Source: Halorubrum salinarum
GTDB lineage: Archaea; Halobacteriota; Halobacteria; Halobacteriales; Haloferacaceae
NCBI RefSeq assembly: GCF_013267195.1
Contig: NZ_CP053941.1
Span: 1,922,001 to 1,986,000 of the forward strand
Length of the DNA stretch: 64,000 nt
Reading direction: 5' to 3'
Positions 46,066 through 54,041 of the stretch are shown piece by piece; position 1 is the stretch's first letter; each line of letters begins with the position of its first letter. The notes beneath the pieces were generated by a model, which searched no databases, was not told where the DNA came from, and saw nothing but the letters and a program-made list of their open reading frames with translations. The position numbers and the translations under genes are program-made.

Positions 46066-47187
46066 ATGGGAACAACTGACTCGTCGATCGTCGACTCGGC
46101 GCGGGCCCGGCCGGGGCTTCTCCTCGTCACTCTCCTCGGCGGCCTGCTCCTCGTCGACCTCGCGGCGAAGCTCGCCGGGGTCGGCCTCGGCCCGATCGGT
46201 GGGTCGATCTCGGTCGACCGGCTCGGCTCGAACCTCTGGAACGGCGTCGTCATCGGCCTCGTGATCGGGCTCGCGGGAATCGGGCTCTCGATGACGTACA
46301 GCATCCTCTCGTTCGCGAACTTCTCGCACGGGGACCTCGTCAGCGTCGGCGCGTTCTCCGGGTGGGGCGTGGCGTTCCTGATCGCGGGGTTCGGCGACGT
46401 GCCGGTCCGCGCGCTCCTGACCGTCCGCGACGCGGGGAACGCCTCGCCGGGCGACATCGGCGCGCACATCCTCACGACGCCCGCCGCCATCCTCGTCGGG
46501 CTGGTGGCGGCGTTCGTCGTCACCGCGCTGCTCGCGGTGGCGCTCGACCGGGGGTTCTACAAGCCGATGCGCGACCGCGACGGGATCGCGCTGCTCATCG
46601 CCTCCATCGGCGCGGCGCTCATCGTCCGGTACCTGCTCCAGTTCGGCTACGGCTCCGACCGGCGCGGGGTCACCGCCAGCGTCGAGCAGTCGAACCTCGC
46701 GTTCGACCCGCTCGGGCTGTCGGTGAACGCGCACGAACTCACCATCCTCGTCGCCGCGGTCGGGCTGATGCTCGCGATGCACGGAATGCTCCAGCACACG
46801 AAGCTCGGGACGGCGATGCGGGCGATGGCCGACAACAAGGACCTCGCGCTCATCACCGGCATCCCGGCCGAGCGAGTCGTCACCGCGACGTGGATCATCG
46901 GCGGCGGGCTCGCGGGCGCGTCCGGCTACCTCTACGTCCTGCTCCGCGGGACGATCCAGTTCGACTTCGGCTGGCTCCTGCTCCTGCTGATCTTCGCGGC
47001 CGTGATATTGGGCGGGATCGGATCCGTCTACGGCGCCATCGCCGGCGGCCTCGTCATCGGCGTCGTGTTCACCACCTCGACGATCTGGATCCCGTCCGAC
47101 TTCAACCAGGCCGCGGCGTTCGGCGTGATGATCCTCATGCTCCTGTTGCGCCCCGAGGGGCTCTTCGGCGGGGTGACGACGACATGA
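46066..47187 (+). CDS. livH: Branched-chain amino acid ABC transporter permease LivH
   Basis: A 373-aa membrane protein with about eight helices. LivH-type motifs are GIGLSMTYSILSFANFSHGD near residue 65, LLIASIGAALIVRYLLQFGY, and GTAMRAMADNKDLALITGIP, the loop contacting LivF/LivG. It overlaps livM by 4 bases (ATGA). First gene of livHMGF. Confidence 0.93.
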   Translation: MGTTDSSIVDSARARPGLLLVTLLGGLLLVDLAAKLAGVGLGPIGGSISVDRLGSNLWNGVVIGLVIGLAGIGLSMTYSILSFANFSHGDLVSVGAFSGWGVAFLIAGFGDVPVRALLTVRDAGNASPGDIGAHILTTPAAILVGLVAAFVVTALLAVALDRGFYKPMRDRDGIALLIASIGAALIVRYLLQFGYGSDRRGVTASVEQSNLAFDPLGLSVNAHELTILVAAVGLMLAMHGMLQHTKLGTAMRAMADNKDLALITGIPAERVVTATWIIGGGLAGASGYLYVLLRGTIQFDFGWLLLLLIFAAVILGGIGSVYGAIAGGLVIGVVFTTSTIWIPSDFNQAAAFGVMILMLLLRPEGLFGGVTTT

Positions 47188-48527
47188 GCGACGCCGACGC
47201 GCCCGGCGACTCCGGGTCCGGACCGAGCGCGCCCGAGGCGCCCGAGAGCGCGATGGCGGCGCTCGCCGAGGCCGCCCGGGAGAGCGACCTCGGCCTCGTC
47301 GTCGGGACGCTGCTCGCGATCTACGCGGCCGCGACGCTGCTGACGTTCACCGACGGGCTCAACAGCGTCGTCGGGCTCATGGAGACGCTGACGTTCCTCG
47401 GGATCGTCTACGCGCTCACCGCGCTCGCCCTGAACCTCCAGTGGGGGTACACCGGCCTGTTCAACATCGGCGTCGCCGGCTTCATGGCCGTCGGCGTCTA
47501 CACGATGGGGATGGTCGTCCGCTCGCCGGACCCCGCGTTCGGCCCGCCCGGACTCGGCCTGCCGCTCCCGGTGGGGATCGCCGCGGGCGTCGCGATGGCG
47601 GCCGTGCTCGGCGCCGTCGCCGCCCTGCCCGCGCTGCGGCTCAAAGCCGACTACCTCGCCATCGTCACGCTCGGGCTCTCGGAGATCATCCGCCTGTCGC
47701 TCCAGTCGAGCGCCTTCGACAACTTCCTGCGCGACACGGTCGGCGCCGGAACGGGCGGCGGTCGCGGGATGGGCATGCCCGACAACCCGGTCCGCGAGCT
47801 GTTCCTCGTCGACGGGCAGGCGGGGACGCCGACCGCGTTCGGCGAGTTCGTCTTCGGCGTCTTCGGCGCCGACGGGCTCGGCATCTCCAACCCGATCCTC
47901 ATCGGCTGGGGGTACATCGCCGTCCTCGCCGCCTTCCTGGTCGGGTTCTACCTCCTGGTCGAACGCCTCGGCCGCTCGCCGTTCGGCCGGACGATGAAGG
48001 CGATCCGGGAGGACGAGCTCGTCGCCGACTCGCTCGGCAAGGACGTGAACCTCGTGAAGATCAAGGTGTTCGTCATCGGCTGTGCCCTGATGGGGCTCGC
48101 GGGCATCCTCTGGTTCGGCAGCCAGGGGAACGTCTCGCCGACGCCGCAGTTCCGCCCCCTGCTCACGTTCTACGTGTTCATCGCGGTGATCATCGGCGGG
48201 TCGGGGTCGAACACCGGCTCGGTCCTCGGCGGCATCGTCTTCGCCGCGGTCCTGTTCGAGGGGCCGCGCCGCGTCGGCGGGGTCGTCCGCGGGCTCATCG
48301 ACGCGGAGACGCCGCCGTCGTTCGCCGACGCGGTCGTCTCGCTCGACCCGGTGACGTTCCTCGCGTACGCGACCGACAACATCGCGCCGCTCCAGTTCGT
48401 CTTCCTCGGGCTGGTCCTGGTGTTCATCATCCACCGGCGCCCGGAGGGGATCCTCGGCGACCGGATCGAGACGGCCGCGGCCGTCGACCTCTCGGAGCGG
48501 CCCGACGGGGGTGAGGCCGATGAGTAG
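47184..48527 (+). CDS. livM: Branched-chain amino acid ABC transporter permease LivM
   Basis: A 447-aa membrane protein with an acidic N-terminal 35 residues. Core motifs are NLQWGYTGLFNIGVAGFMAV, the segment LKADYLAIVTLGLSEIIRLS, and the ATPase-contact loop GRTMKAIREDELVADSLGKD. The ATG at 47184 overlaps livH by 4 bases; livG overlaps its end by 8 bases. Confidence 0.93.
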   Translation: MSDADAPGDSGSGPSAPEAPESAMAALAEAARESDLGLVVGTLLAIYAAATLLTFTDGLNSVVGLMETLTFLGIVYALTALALNLQWGYTGLFNIGVAGFMAVGVYTMGMVVRSPDPAFGPPGLGLPLPVGIAAGVAMAAVLGAVAALPALRLKADYLAIVTLGLSEIIRLSLQSSAFDNFLRDTVGAGTGGGRGMGMPDNPVRELFLVDGQAGTPTAFGEFVFGVFGADGLGISNPILIGWGYIAVLAAFLVGFYLLVERLGRSPFGRTMKAIREDELVADSLGKDVNLVKIKVFVIGCALMGLAGILWFGSQGNVSPTPQFRPLLTFYVFIAVIIGGSGSNTGSVLGGIVFAAVLFEGPRRVGGVVRGLIDAETPPSFADAVVSLDPVTFLAYATDNIAPLQFVFLGLVLVFIIHRRPEGILGDRIETAAAVDLSERPDGGEADE

Positions 48528-49422
48528 CGACGTTCCGGAGGCGGACGACGCGGCCCGGGTCGCCGACGCGGTCGACGCGGCGGACGCCCCCGAGGACGAA
48601 CCCGAGGCGAACGACAGCGCGGTCGAGGAGGCCGCGAAGCACGTCCCGTCCGGGGCGCCCCCGCTCCGCGTGGAGGGGCTCGTCAAGCGGTTCGGCGGCG
48701 TCACCGCCGTCGACGGCGCCTCCTTCGAGGTCGAGGCCGGGTCGCTGACCGGCCTCATCGGGCCGAACGGCGCCGGGAAGTCGACCACGTTCAACTGTAT
48801 CACCGGCGTCCACGAGCCGACCGCGGGCACGGTGACCTTCGAGGGCGAGGACATCACCGGGCTCAGGCCCCACGAGATCGCGCGCAAGGGGCTGGTTCGG
48901 ACCTTCCAGATCGCCCGGGAGCTCTCCGAGATGACCGTCCTGGAGAACCTCATGCTCGCGCCGCAGGGCCAGGTCGGCGAGTCCGCGATCCGGGCCGTGA
49001 CGCCCGGCCTCCGCGGCGCGGTGATCGAAGAGGAGACCGACATCCGCGAGCGGGCCTGGGAGACGCTGGAGTTCTTCGAGATCGACCACCTCGCGCACGA
49101 GCACGCGGGGAACCTCTCCGGCGGCCAGCGGAAGCTGCTGGAGATGGCCCGCGCGCTGATGACCGACCCCGAGATGGTGCTGCTCGACGAGCCGCTCGCC
49201 GGGGTCAACCCGACCCTCCAGGAGAAGCTCTTGGACCGGGTCCACGACCTGCGCGCGGACGGCTACACCTTCCTGCTCGTCGAACACGACATGGACGTCA
49301 TCATGAACAACTGCGAACGCGTCATCGTCATGCATCAGGGCAGCGTGCTCGCCGAGGGGACCGGCGACGAGATACGGAACGACGAGCGGGTCATCGAGGC
49401 GTACCTGGGTGAGGACCTATGA
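48520..49422 (+). CDS. livG: Branched-chain amino acid ABC transporter ATP-binding protein LivG
   Basis: A 300-aa ATPase. The first 45 residues are acidic and dispensable-looking. Walker A is GPNGAGKST (81-89), the signature is LSGGQRK, Walker B is MVLLDEPLAGVNP, and the H-loop is VEHDMD. The ATG at 48520 overlaps livM; it overlaps livF by 4 bases at its end. Confidence 0.95.
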   Translation: MSSDVPEADDAARVADAVDAADAPEDEPEANDSAVEEAAKHVPSGAPPLRVEGLVKRFGGVTAVDGASFEVEAGSLTGLIGPNGAGKSTTFNCITGVHEPTAGTVTFEGEDITGLRPHEIARKGLVRTFQIARELSEMTVLENLMLAPQGQVGESAIRAVTPGLRGAVIEEETDIRERAWETLEFFEIDHLAHEHAGNLSGGQRKLLEMARALMTDPEMVLLDEPLAGVNPTLQEKLLDRVHDLRADGYTFLLVEHDMDVIMNNCERVIVMHQGSVLAEGTGDEIRNDERVIEAYLGEDL

Positions 49423-50213
49423 CCGCCGACGGCGCGGCGGGCGAGGCGGCGGACGCCGACGAGCCGGCGGCAGACGCGGCCGCCGGAACGACCCACACGA
49501 TCGACGGGGACGCGATCCTCCGGATCCGGGACCTCGACGCCGGCTACGGCGACCTCCAGATCCTCTCCGACGTGGCCCTCGACGTCGCCGACGAGGAGTA
49601 CGTGACCATCGTCGGCCCCAACGGGGCCGGCAAGTCGACGGTGATGAAGACCGTCTTCGGGCTCACGACGCACATGGGCGGCACCGTCGAGTTCGAGGGG
49701 GCGCAGATCCAGGGGCTCGCGCCCGAGCAGATCATCCGCGAGGGGATCGGCTTCGTCCCGCAGACGGACAACGTGTTCCCCGGGCTCAGCGTCCGCGAGA
49801 ACCTTGAGATGGGCGCCTACATCCTCGACGAGGTGCCCGAAGACCAGATCGAGACGATCTACGACCGGTTCCCGATCCTCCGGGAGCGCAGCGACCAGAA
49901 GGCGGGGACGCTCTCCGGCGGCCAGCGGCAGATGGTCGCGATGGGCCGGGCGCTCATGCTCGACCCGGACCTCCTGCTGCTCGACGAGCCCTCGGCGGGG
50001 CTCGCCCCCGACCTCGTCGCCGACATGTTCGACCGGATCGACCGGATCAACGAGAGCGGGACGGCCGTGCTGATGGTCGAACAGAACGCGAAGGAGGCGC
50101 TGCGCCGCTGCGACCGCGGCTACGTGCTGGTGAACGGCGCGAACCGCTACACCGACCGCGGCGACGTGCTGCTCGCCGACGAGGACGTGCGGCGCGACTT
50201 CCTCGGCGGGTGA
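49419..50213 (+). CDS. livF: Branched-chain amino acid ABC transporter ATP-binding protein LivF
   Basis: A 264-aa ATPase with Walker A GPNGAGKST (66-74), LSGGQRQ signature, Walker B LLLLDEPSAGLAP and the H-loop Gln variant VEQNAKEAL. The pairing with LivG as a heterodimer is typical. Last gene of the livHMGF transcript. Confidence 0.95.
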   Translation: MTADGAAGEAADADEPAADAAAGTTHTIDGDAILRIRDLDAGYGDLQILSDVALDVADEEYVTIVGPNGAGKSTVMKTVFGLTTHMGGTVEFEGAQIQGLAPEQIIREGIGFVPQTDNVFPGLSVRENLEMGAYILDEVPEDQIETIYDRFPILRERSDQKAGTLSGGQRQMVAMGRALMLDPDLLLLDEPSAGLAPDLVADMFDRIDRINESGTAVLMVEQNAKEALRRCDRGYVLVNGANRYTDRGDVLLADEDVRRDFLGG

Positions 50214-50303
50214 ACCGCGGTCGACCGCGGCTCGCGCGACTCTGAACGGCGTCGATGACGCCGCTCGGGGAAGGCTTATCAGGTGCGCCGTCGCAGTGAG
50301 GCC

Positions 50304-50696
50304 GTGCCCTCTCGACGAGCGGTCCTCGGCGCTGTCGGCGTCGCGGCGGTCGGCTCGCTCGGCGGCTGTTCGCGCCTCTCCTCCGACGCCGAGCGCGTCG
50401 GGCTGACCGTGTTCAACCAGACGGACGCGACCTACACCGTCGAGATAGGATTCTTCGACGACGACGCCCCGGAGCCGGCGGCGCGGGCGTACGAGTCCGC
50501 CCTCGACGTGGGCCCCGGCGGCGAGGCGGCGCGCGACGCGGTCGCCGAGGTCGGGCGGTACCTCGTCCGCTACCGGGCCTACGAGGACGGGTCCAGGCTG
50601 ACCGATCAGGGCAACGTCCACTTCGTCCCCGACGGCGACGGGAGCGAGCGGCTCACCTTCGACGTTCGAGAGTCGGGCGTACTGACGACGCGGTGA
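50304..50696 (+). CDS. Small lipoprotein, 130 aa
   Basis: The GTG at 50304 starts VPSRRAVLGAVGVAAVGSLG with a GGC lipobox: a twin-arginine lipoprotein signal. A cttatc element about 28 bp upstream supports this start over the in-frame GTG at 50283. The mature part has GLTVFNQTDATYTVEIGFFD and a beta-sandwich-like pattern. It lies between livF and the convergent livK; a role in the liv system is possible but unproven. Confidence 0.75.
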   Translation: MPSRRAVLGAVGVAAVGSLGGCSRLSSDAERVGLTVFNQTDATYTVEIGFFDDDAPEPAARAYESALDVGPGGEAARDAVAEVGRYLVRYRAYEDGSRLTDQGNVHFVPDGDGSERLTFDVRESGVLTTR

Positions 50697-50771: not shown

Positions 50772-52172
50772 CTACTGGTTCAGCACGCTCGACCACTGGC
50801 TGGTGTACGTCGCCTGGTTCGGCTCGAAGGAGACGCGCTGGGTGATCGTCCCGTCGCGCTCCTGGAAGGCGTTCACGTACGCCTCCTCCAGCGACTGGCC
50901 GTATGCGTCGTTGAGGTACAGCGTGCCGGACGACGAGGCGCCGACGGTGTCGCCGACGGCGAGGTCGGCCATCGCCGGCCCCTGGAGCAGGTCCGAGGGC
51001 GCGGTCCGGAAGATGTAGCCGTTGTCCTCTAAGTCCGTCACGTTCGGGTCGGTCGAGGACGGCGAGATACCCACGACGCCGTTCGGGATGAACACCTGGT
51101 CCGAGACCTGGAGGTTGACGTTCGACGAGGCCGGGCCGACGACCGCGCCGAAACCGGCGTTGACGAGGGCGTTCGCGCCGGAGATCCCCGCCTGCGGGTC
51201 GGTCTGCGTGTCCTCGACTCTCGTCTCGACGTCGACGTTGATGCCGGCGTCGTTGACCTGGGTGGCCGCGAGCAGCGCGCCGTCGCGGATCGGGACGCCG
51301 AGCGGGCCGAGGTCGCCCGTCTCCGGCATCAACACGCCGATCCGGGCAGTGAACGAGTCGACGCCCACGGGGTCGGCCGCGGTCGCGTTCCGGTCCTCCT
51401 CGCTGAGCTCGTTCCCGAACTCGACGGTGTCGAGCGTGACGAGGTCGCCGTCCTGGAAGTCGATGATGTCGTAGGCCGCGGTCGCGATGTCGCCGTTGGC
51501 GTCGAAGTTGACGCTGGAGGACGCGCCCACGTAGTGGACGGGGTCGCCCCCGGCGACCGTCTCGACGGCCTCGGGCAGGTCCGCGGGGCCGAACTCCTCG
51601 CCGCCGGGGTTGGCGACGGTGCGGACGCGGTCGCGGATCGCCTGGCCGCTGTTCTCGCCCGCGGCGGTCGCCGCGAGGATCTCGACCGCCATCGCGTCGT
51701 ACGCCTGCGCGGTGAACACGCCCGGCTCCTCGCCGTACGCCTCCTGGTACGACTCGGTGAAGAACTCCGCGCCGGGGCCGCCCGCGGAGGGCGCGGTGCC
51801 GATGACGTTGTTCATGTCGTTGTCGACCTCGCCGGGCAGGTCGCTGTCGATGAGCCCGTCGGGGACGATGATGTCGAGGTCGGGCGCGCTGTCGGCGAAC
51901 TCCGAGTAGAAGTCGCGGAACAGCTGGATCCCGGACTGCGGGAACCCGACGACCATCACGGCGTCGGGGACGTTGTTCTGGTCCCCGCCGTCGCCGCCGT
52001 CGGACCCGTCGGATCCGTCCCCGCCGTCCATCCCGTCGCCGCCGTCGGACCCGTCGGATCCGTCCCCGCCGCCGCCGCCGTCACCGCTCTCCGTCGAGCA
52101 ACCCGCGAGCCCCGCAATGCCGACCGCGCCGGCGCCCTTGAGTACGTCGCGTCGCTGGATTCTTCGCTTCAT
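50772..52172 (-). CDS. Branched-chain amino acid ABC substrate-binding lipoprotein, circularly permuted LivK
   Basis: A 466-aa protein starting MKRRIQRRDVLKGAGAVGIA: Tat-type signal with lipobox Cys25, then a Gly-Asp-Ser linker to about residue 65. In normal LivK-type proteins the linker leads into the RIGVLMPxTG strand and the YTSQ...DAVMVVGFPQSG segment comes midway. Here the linker leads directly into QNNVPDAVMVVGFPQSGIQL (about 65-84), runs through the usual C-terminal half to GASSSVNFDANGDI and DTVEFGNE (about 253), crosses a new 20-residue linker, and only then begins FTARIGVLMPETGDLGPLG (274 on). It ends in YTSQWSSVLNQ. Both halves are intact and in frame. Convergent with livHMGF. A ttataa element is about 28 bp upstream of the ATG. 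Confidence 0.9.
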   Translation of the reverse strand: MKRRIQRRDVLKGAGAVGIAGLAGCSTESGDGGGGGDGSDGSDGGDGMDGGDGSDGSDGGDGGDQNNVPDAVMVVGFPQSGIQLFRDFYSEFADSAPDLDIIVPDGLIDSDLPGEVDNDMNNVIGTAPSAGGPGAEFFTESYQEAYGEEPGVFTAQAYDAMAVEILAATAAGENSGQAIRDRVRTVANPGGEEFGPADLPEAVETVAGGDPVHYVGASSSVNFDANGDIATAAYDIIDFQDGDLVTLDTVEFGNELSEEDRNATAADPVGVDSFTARIGVLMPETGDLGPLGVPIRDGALLAATQVNDAGINVDVETRVEDTQTDPQAGISGANALVNAGFGAVVGPASSNVNLQVSDQVFIPNGVVGISPSSTDPNVTDLEDNGYIFRTAPSDLLQGPAMADLAVGDTVGASSSGTLYLNDAYGQSLEEAYVNAFQERDGTITQRVSFEPNQATYTSQWSSVLNQ

Positions 52173-52382: not shown

Positions 52383-54041
52383 TCAGTACCCCTGCGCGTT
52401 CCCGTCCTTCCGGGGCTCCGTGGCGGCCGAGAGGACCCCGTCCCGGCTCCGCGCGATCTGGGCGCCGCCGAACATGACCGGCGAGAGCGTCCGCACGTCG
52501 TGGTCCTTGCGGACGAGCTTCGCCGCGGCGTCGTCGTCGAAGTGCGGCTCCAGCGCCAGTTCGCCGCTCTCGCGGTAGCGCCACCGCGGCTCGTCGAGCG
52601 CGCGCTGGAGCGGCATCCCGTAGTCGACGAGGTTGGAGATCACCTGGACGTGGCCCTGCGGCTGCATGTACCCGCCCATCACGCCGAACGCCGCCCAGTC
52701 GTCCTCGTCGAACCGGACGACGCCCGGGATGAGCGTGTGGAAGGGCCGCTTGCCGGGTTCGAGGCTGTTCGGGTGGTCCGGGTCGAGCGAGAAGGACGCG
52801 CCGCGGTTCTGTAAGGCGATGCCGGTGTCGCCGGCGACGAGCCCGGAGCCGAAGCCGGCGAACCGGGAGTTGATGTACGAGACGACGTTGCCCGCCTCGT
52901 CCGCGACGGTGAGGAGGACGGTGTCGGCGTCCTCGGCGTTCGCGTTCGGCACGCCGAAGGAGACGTCGTGCGAGGCCGTCTCGCCGACGCCCGCGGCGCG
53001 CTCGCTCGCCCACTCGCTCGACGCGAGCGGCGGGATCGACTCGTACTCGGGGTCGGTGATGTAGCGGTGCCCGTCGTGGAACGCCCGCTTCATCGCCTCG
53101 GCGAAGTAGTGGACGCGCTCGGGCGAGTCGTAGTCGTACTCGCCGGCGCCGAGTTCGCTCGCGACGTTGAGCGCTTCCAGGGCGATCAGTCCCTGGTTGT
53201 TCGGCGGGAGCTCGTACACCTCGGCGCCGTTGTAGCTGGTCGAGACGGGGTCCGGCCACTCGACCTCGAAGTCGGCGAGGTCGTCGACGGTCATGAACCC
53301 GCCCTGCGACTGGACCTCGTCGGCGATGGCCTCCGCGATCTCGCCCTCGTACACCACGTCGGCGCCCTCCTCGGCGATCCGCCGCATCGACTCGCCGAGC
53401 CGCGGGAGCGTCACCGTCTGCCCGACGCCCGGCGGCTCGCCGTCGAAGAGGAACGCCTCGCGGGCGTGGTCGTCGGTGAAGAGCGCGTCGGCGCTCGCCC
53501 AGTAGGAGGCGATGACCTCGGACACCGGGTAGCCCTCGGTCGCGTAGCGGATGGCGGGCGCGAGCGCGTCCGCGAGGGTGAGCCGGCCCAGCTCCTCGAC
53601 GGTGGCCTCCCAGCCGCGGGCCGTCCCGGGCACCGTGACCGCGTGCGGGCCGTAGAACGGCATCCCGGCCTCGCCGGCGTCGTCGACCGCGTAGCCGCCG
53701 TCGTCGGGGTAGTACGAGTCGGCGTCGTCGTCCTCGGCGAGCGCCGCCTTGACGTTCTCTATCGTCGCGTCTGCGGGGGCGCCGCCGCACGAGCGCATCG
53801 CGCCGACCTCGCCGTCGGCGGTCCGGTACAGCGCGAACACGTCGCCGCCGAGCCCGGTCGAGGTGGGCTCGACGACGTTCAGCGCGGCCGCGGTCGCGAC
53901 CGCCGCGTCGAACGCGTTCCCGCCCTCGCGGAGGACTTCGATCCCCGCCTCGCTGGCGAGCGGCTGGCTGGTCGCCACCACGCCGCGCTGACCGTACACG
54001 GTCGATCGGCGCGACGTGAACCGGTCTAAGTCTGGCTCCAT
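52383..54041 (-). CDS. ggt: Gamma-glutamyltransferase
   Basis: A 552-aa Ntn-type hydrolase. N-terminal motif EAGIEVLREGGNAFDAAVAT (about 31-50) and GLGGDVFALY. The autocleavage/catalytic Thr is in DADTVLLTVADEAGNVVSYI (near 375), followed by NSRFAGFGSG and the C-terminal GGYMQPQGHVQVISNLVDYG. No signal peptide, so it is cytoplasmic as written. It transfers or hydrolyses gamma-glutamyl groups. Haloarchaea use gamma-glutamylcysteine as main thiol, so its breakdown is a plausible role (inference). Confidence 0.92.
   Translation of the reverse strand: MEPDLDRFTSRRSTVYGQRGVVATSQPLASEAGIEVLREGGNAFDAAVATAAALNVVEPTSTGLGGDVFALYRTADGEVGAMRSCGGAPADATIENVKAALAEDDDADSYYPDDGGYAVDDAGEAGMPFYGPHAVTVPGTARGWEATVEELGRLTLADALAPAIRYATEGYPVSEVIASYWASADALFTDDHAREAFLFDGEPPGVGQTVTLPRLGESMRRIAEEGADVVYEGEIAEAIADEVQSQGGFMTVDDLADFEVEWPDPVSTSYNGAEVYELPPNNQGLIALEALNVASELGAGEYDYDSPERVHYFAEAMKRAFHDGHRYITDPEYESIPPLASSEWASERAAGVGETASHDVSFGVPNANAEDADTVLLTVADEAGNVVSYINSRFAGFGSGLVAGDTGIALQNRGASFSLDPDHPNSLEPGKRPFHTLIPGVVRFDEDDWAAFGVMGGYMQPQGHVQVISNLVDYGMPLQRALDEPRWRYRESGELALEPHFDDDAAAKLVRKDHDVRTLSPVMFGGAQIARSRDGVLSAATEPRKDGNAQGY

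Follow-up and report, generated by a model that had tools for sequence, protein, structure and literature searches.

Exchanged halves in a LivK-type binding protein of Halorubrum salinarum and probable parallel permutation of its locus among haloarchaea

The locus described here raises two questions: whether a substrate-binding protein whose halves stand in exchanged order is a working partner of a haloarchaeal ATP-binding cassette (ABC) importer, and whether that order arose once or repeatedly. The gene lies within a 64,000-nucleotide stretch of the Halorubrum salinarum genome (assembly GCF_013267195.1, contig NZ_CP053941.1, positions 1,922,001 to 1,986,000), referred to here as the window. 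It occupies 50772..52172 on the minus strand and encodes a circularly permuted LivK-type substrate-binding lipoprotein of 466 amino acids (aa), as judged from the open frame, a match to Peripla_BP_6, and relatives with the same order. A sequence-only reading had proposed the permutation and had treated it as one local event. The permutation proved to be real, given the single intact frame, the half-wise swapped alignment to normal-order relatives, and the phmmer match of the un-permuted protein. The local event did not hold up: the permutation is older than the Halorubrum/Natronomonas/Halohasta group and is probably one of at least three in haloarchaea. It is probable that the protein is a working, natural, permuted LivK-type (HAAT, type I) lipoprotein for the adjacent LivHMGF importer and that the permuted order is present in at least three separate clades at the orthologous locus. 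We also think it likely that, at this one locus, permuted order replaced normal order on at least three occasions, with the same loop cut on each of them.

The permuted livK frame runs uninterrupted from the ATG at 52172 to the stop codon at 50772-50774, and the mature protein is ordered as middle to usual C terminus, a 24-aa bridge, and usual N terminus to middle. Residues 1-25 (52098..52172, minus strand, as for all parts of this gene) form a twin-arginine translocation (Tat) signal and lipobox (RRDVLKG...LAGC), recognized from the sequence and by a Pfam TAT_signal match (0.00064) that is below the cut-off. The low-complexity D/G/S linker that follows (residues 26-65; 51978..52097) varies among relatives and is taken from its sequence to be the membrane tether; signal, lipobox, and linker stand ahead of the swapped halves, as the sequence-only reading had stated. 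The usual C-terminal half, moved to first place (residues about 66-252; 51417..51977), was delimited by half-wise tblastn and hidden Markov model (HMM) matches. The bridge from the old C terminus to the old N terminus (residues 253-276, GNELSEEDRNATAADPVGVDSFTA; 51345..51416) is conserved within its clade and unlike the bridges of other permuted clades; it had been put at 20 residues and is in fact about 24. The usual N-terminal half, moved to last place (residues 277-466; 50775..51344), was assigned by Pfam, half-wise tblastn, and HMM matches and ends in the helix YTSQWSSVLNQ. A CAG codon common to both new ends had been taken as a mark of the old join, but this is a coincidence; close relatives end in ...VLEE or ...VLDT and begin with ...GGSAPD or ...VAQTPD.

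Profile and sequence comparisons identified both halves. Pfam Peripla_BP_6 (PF13458) matched the protein with 112 bits (cut-off, 31.7; E value, 4.9e-32) in two stretches, the better of which aligned query residues 276-463 with profile positions 2-186, and HMMs of the N half and of the C half both matched. The halves aligned in exchanged order to normal-order relatives, with identities of 67% and 57% to the Halorarius protein at locus L037. When the protein was compared by phmmer with PDB sequences in its native order, leucine-type binders were matched by the N half only (3td9; E value, 1e-14); with the halves swapped back, the match to Thermotoga maritima LivK (3td9) was a single alignment over residues 3-320 (E value, 8e-18) that spanned the old join. 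The PDB matches were leucine or branched-chain amino acid binders and metabotropic glutamate receptors. Order-dependent annotation misses the protein, because the NCBIfam model scored 59 against a cut-off of 477 and matched the N half alone; this is a warning that such annotation overlooks permuted proteins of this kind. Among Halorubrum orthologues, the ratio of nonsynonymous to synonymous substitution (dN/dS) was 0.08-0.27 in both halves, indicating purifying selection.

Structure prediction located the cut. The AlphaFold2 model of the permuted protein, made with 67 permuted sequences, showed a type I (Venus flytrap) fold with high confidence (predicted local distance difference test [pLDDT], 92.6; predicted template modeling score [pTM], 0.87), and the normal-order Halorarius relative was modeled similarly well (pLDDT, 91.8; pTM, 0.91). 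The two models share an identical list of secondary-structure elements with the halves exchanged, and the permuted model has the LivK elements in swapped order. Foldseek, whose alignment respects chain order, aligned the permuted model with LivK-type structures over about 194 columns (query template modeling score [TMq], about 0.40) and the normal-order L037 model over 382 columns (TMq, 0.81). The cut falls within lobe 2, the C lobe, where a short loop connects the helix YTSQWSSVLNQ to the strand PDAVMVVGF; the strand is the third of the lobe, and the helix follows the second.

The permuted order is widespread. About 25 named assemblies of Halorubrum, Natronomonas, and Halohasta, among them Natronomonas sp. 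LN261 and Halohasta salina, carry it in one open reading frame (ORF), as do metagenome-assembled genomes. Of the 391 haloarchaeal genomes sampled, at least 146 matched the permuted query collinearly over its full length, a lower bound counted among the matches listed; the normal-order query found many normal-order genes in haloarchaeal genomes as well. Loci L009-L036 and L051 carry the swapped order in a single ORF and loci L037-L050 the normal order; the fetched loci comprised 122 ORFs of order C-N (CN) and 83 of order N-C. Several genomes hold one permuted and one normal-order gene. Normal order is likely the ancestral state, since the archaeal outgroups of the same phylum are all N-C; outside Halobacteria, no permuted form was seen within that phylum. 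One Halorubrum-group genome (G065:C2:2081264-2082157) may hold a truncated or decaying copy; there, the permuted match extends only to residue 298 of the query, and the frame is 368 aa long.

Phylogenetic analysis addressed the number of origins. The tree of the joined halves required four changes of order, as did separate trees of the N half and of the C half, and in a careful rooted tree one change occurred in 0% of bootstrap trees and four over the 5-95% range. The permuted genes fell into clade A, which is broad; clade B, a genus-level group (g29) and a neighbor; clade C, consisting of L104 alone; and clade D, which contains the window. Clade D was sister to the normal-order Halorarius gene L037 (support, 100/97) and nested among normal-order genes. 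A single origin was rejected by the approximately unbiased (AU) test on the binding protein, whether all CN genes were forced into a single clade (P = 0.002) or A was joined with D (P = 0.010) or B with D (P = 0.0023). The concatenated LivH, LivM, LivG, and LivF tree gave three forced changes, again with L037 and clade D as sisters and with L104 beside clade B, and the AU test on these transporter genes yielded 6e-5 for all CN genes, 5e-7 for A with D, 2e-5 for B with D, and 0.017 for A with B. A fourth origin for L104 was unsupported; L104 may join clade A in the binding-protein data and joins clade B in the transporter tree. The simplest reading of these sequence data is that permutation would have occurred in place at least three times, in A, in B (with C), and in D.

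In all clades, the cut falls in the same loop, to within a few residues, and the bridge is about 20-26 aa long; the bridge sequences are unlike between clades. The bridges read ...GPSADESPGGLGREV in clade A, ...IPQPEPQGSGSGADRTV in clade B, and ...NATAADPVGVDSFEA in clade D. The clade D bridge is well conserved within the clade and terminates in SFEA; among the normal-order proteins printed, SFEA precedes the N half in the sister protein L037 only.

Several observations weigh against three parallel permutations. With the binding protein, the AU test allowed A and B to form a single clade (P = 0.16) and left C (L104) indistinguishable from A (P = 0.40). Being linked to the binding protein, the transporter genes provide evidence that is not fully independent. 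No duplication intermediates (NCNC or half-only neighboring ORFs) were present among the fetched loci. Finally, unless some structural or mechanistic reason exists, three independent cuts in exactly one loop are improbable.

The AU results for A with B and for A with C would fit two origins only, with A, B, and C from one permutation and D from a second, and the binding-protein data alone demand a minimum of two. We nevertheless regard two origins as unlikely: the transporter genes separate A from B, the bridges of A and B are unlike, and the starred branches of the rooted and transporter trees force three changes. Less probable still is a single permutation followed by gene conversion, in which normal-order paralogues would have replaced the two halves of some permuted genes and made the trees of the halves mimic several origins. 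The identity of the cut loop in all clades, the failure of the binding-protein AU test to separate A from B, and the genomes that contain both kinds of gene speak for this reading. However, both halves of clade D and all four of its transporter genes give the normal-order L037 as sister, and conversion would need both halves to be replaced from a donor that matches the transporter; moreover, the bridges differ between clades, and that of clade D ends in SFEA, as does the sequence before the N half in L037. An assembly artefact, a rearranged pseudogene, or a misread tandem duplication has a negligible chance of being correct and was ruled out by the order in relatives (shared by dozens of independent assemblies, of which some have the gene on near-complete chromosomes), the intact frames, and dN/dS well below 1. 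The sequence-only reading had raised misassembly as an alternative and had held that this is not a simple rearranged pseudogene.

If the locus was permuted in parallel at least three times, each permutation would have begun with a tandem duplication of livK, the copies would have fused in frame through read-through of the old stop codon, and the outer halves would then have been lost, as in the permutation-by-duplication model (PMC3320104). Tandem duplications of permuted livK do happen, since two genomes of one genus (L102 and L103) carry adjacent tandem permuted genes; their inner N|C junction, if fused, would restore a normal-order protein. The permuted protein would presumably still close round its ligand as LivK does, and its lipid tether would have shifted from lobe 1 to lobe 2. 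Possible reasons for repeated use of one loop are that the site is tolerated by the fold or that selection acts on the attachment point of the tether. Parallel permutation, if true, would mean that the loop, or the tether position that results from it, is favored by folding, secretion, or permease docking.

The LivHMGF-type transporter genes that accompany permuted livK (46066-50213) are kept in relatives. On the plus strand, they are a livH-like permease gene (46066..47187; NCBIfam LivH/UrtB-like, below equivalog cut-offs), a livM-like permease gene (47184..48527; LivM E value, 4.9e-33), a livG-like ATPase gene (48511..49422; LivG E value, 5.7e-74), and a livF-like ATPase gene (49419..50213; LivF E value, 7.8e-66, and synteny), the last three also matching below the NCBIfam cut-offs. 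In most relatives, the livF-like gene and permuted livK converge. Whether the order is permuted or normal, livF-livG-livM-livH and the binding-protein gene usually stand in convergent orientation, and permuted and normal-order genes occupy one orthologous locus. From family membership and synteny, we infer that the protein would deliver an amino acid-like ligand to this importer.

Between livF and livK lies a small lipoprotein-like ORF of 137 aa (50283-50696, plus strand) with no NCBIfam match, present among the compared loci in the window's own genome only. Directly upstream of permuted livK, on the same strand, is a gamma-glutamyltransferase gene (ggt; 52383-54041, minus strand; TIGR00066, above cut-off), an arrangement shared by most Halorubrum relatives and not seen in the other genera compared; this neighbor may hint at the transported substrate. 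In some Halorubrum species (L036, L051, L123, L125, and L150), a clade A or normal-order livK-livFGMH operon stands within a few kilobases of ggt in place of the clade D operon, a pattern that would fit the exchange of entire operons of different types at one place.

Our literature search found no report of permuted LivK or permuted binding proteins in haloarchaea, most subscription papers being outside the searched set, and as far as could be found, parallel permutation at one loop in one transporter locus is undescribed. With several probable independent origins and many culturable haloarchaea, the effects of permutation on folding, ligand closure, and docking can be tested, as can the reasons for repeated use of one loop. 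Like LivK/LivJ-type proteins (HAAT, PF13458; T. maritima LivK, 3td9; Brucella, 4n0q), the permuted protein has homologous halves that both match the profile, a predicted two-lobed type I fold, and a lipoprotein's partnership with LivHMGF neighbors; it differs in its swapped halves in place of the usual N-then-C order, new termini in lobe 2, an extra bridge of about 24 aa, and a tether on the other lobe. DNA methyltransferases and transhydrogenases are textbook permuted families, for which duplication intermediates and independent fusions, respectively, have been cited (PMC3320104); in contrast, the LivK permutation lies inside a single two-lobed domain, appears to be repeated at one loop, and was seen without intermediates. 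Among permuted type I binding proteins, the nearest precedent is TpMglB-2 (Tp0684), which with its relatives in treponemes and Gram-positive bacteria was proposed as "Type Ic / Cluster Bc" permuted sugar-binding proteins; its N-lobe strands 1-3 have moved to the C terminus, with the cut in the N lobe and a fourth hinge crossing (PMC4990184). Both are natural circular permutants of lipid-anchored type I binding proteins that are conserved in a species group. The haloarchaeal protein is instead cut in the C lobe before PDAVMVVGF, is a HAAT protein with no glucose/galactose-binding (MglB) relationship, and has counterparts permuted at an orthologous locus in several clades. Glycine-betaine-binding proteins, molybdate-binding proteins, and CysB are likewise solute-binding proteins reported as a family related by circular permutation, with less than 24% sequence identity and a structural relationship (PMC2395249). 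Natural circular permutants are usually recognized between remote homologues, whereas here the two orders coexist at one locus in haloarchaeal orthologues of about 65% identity.
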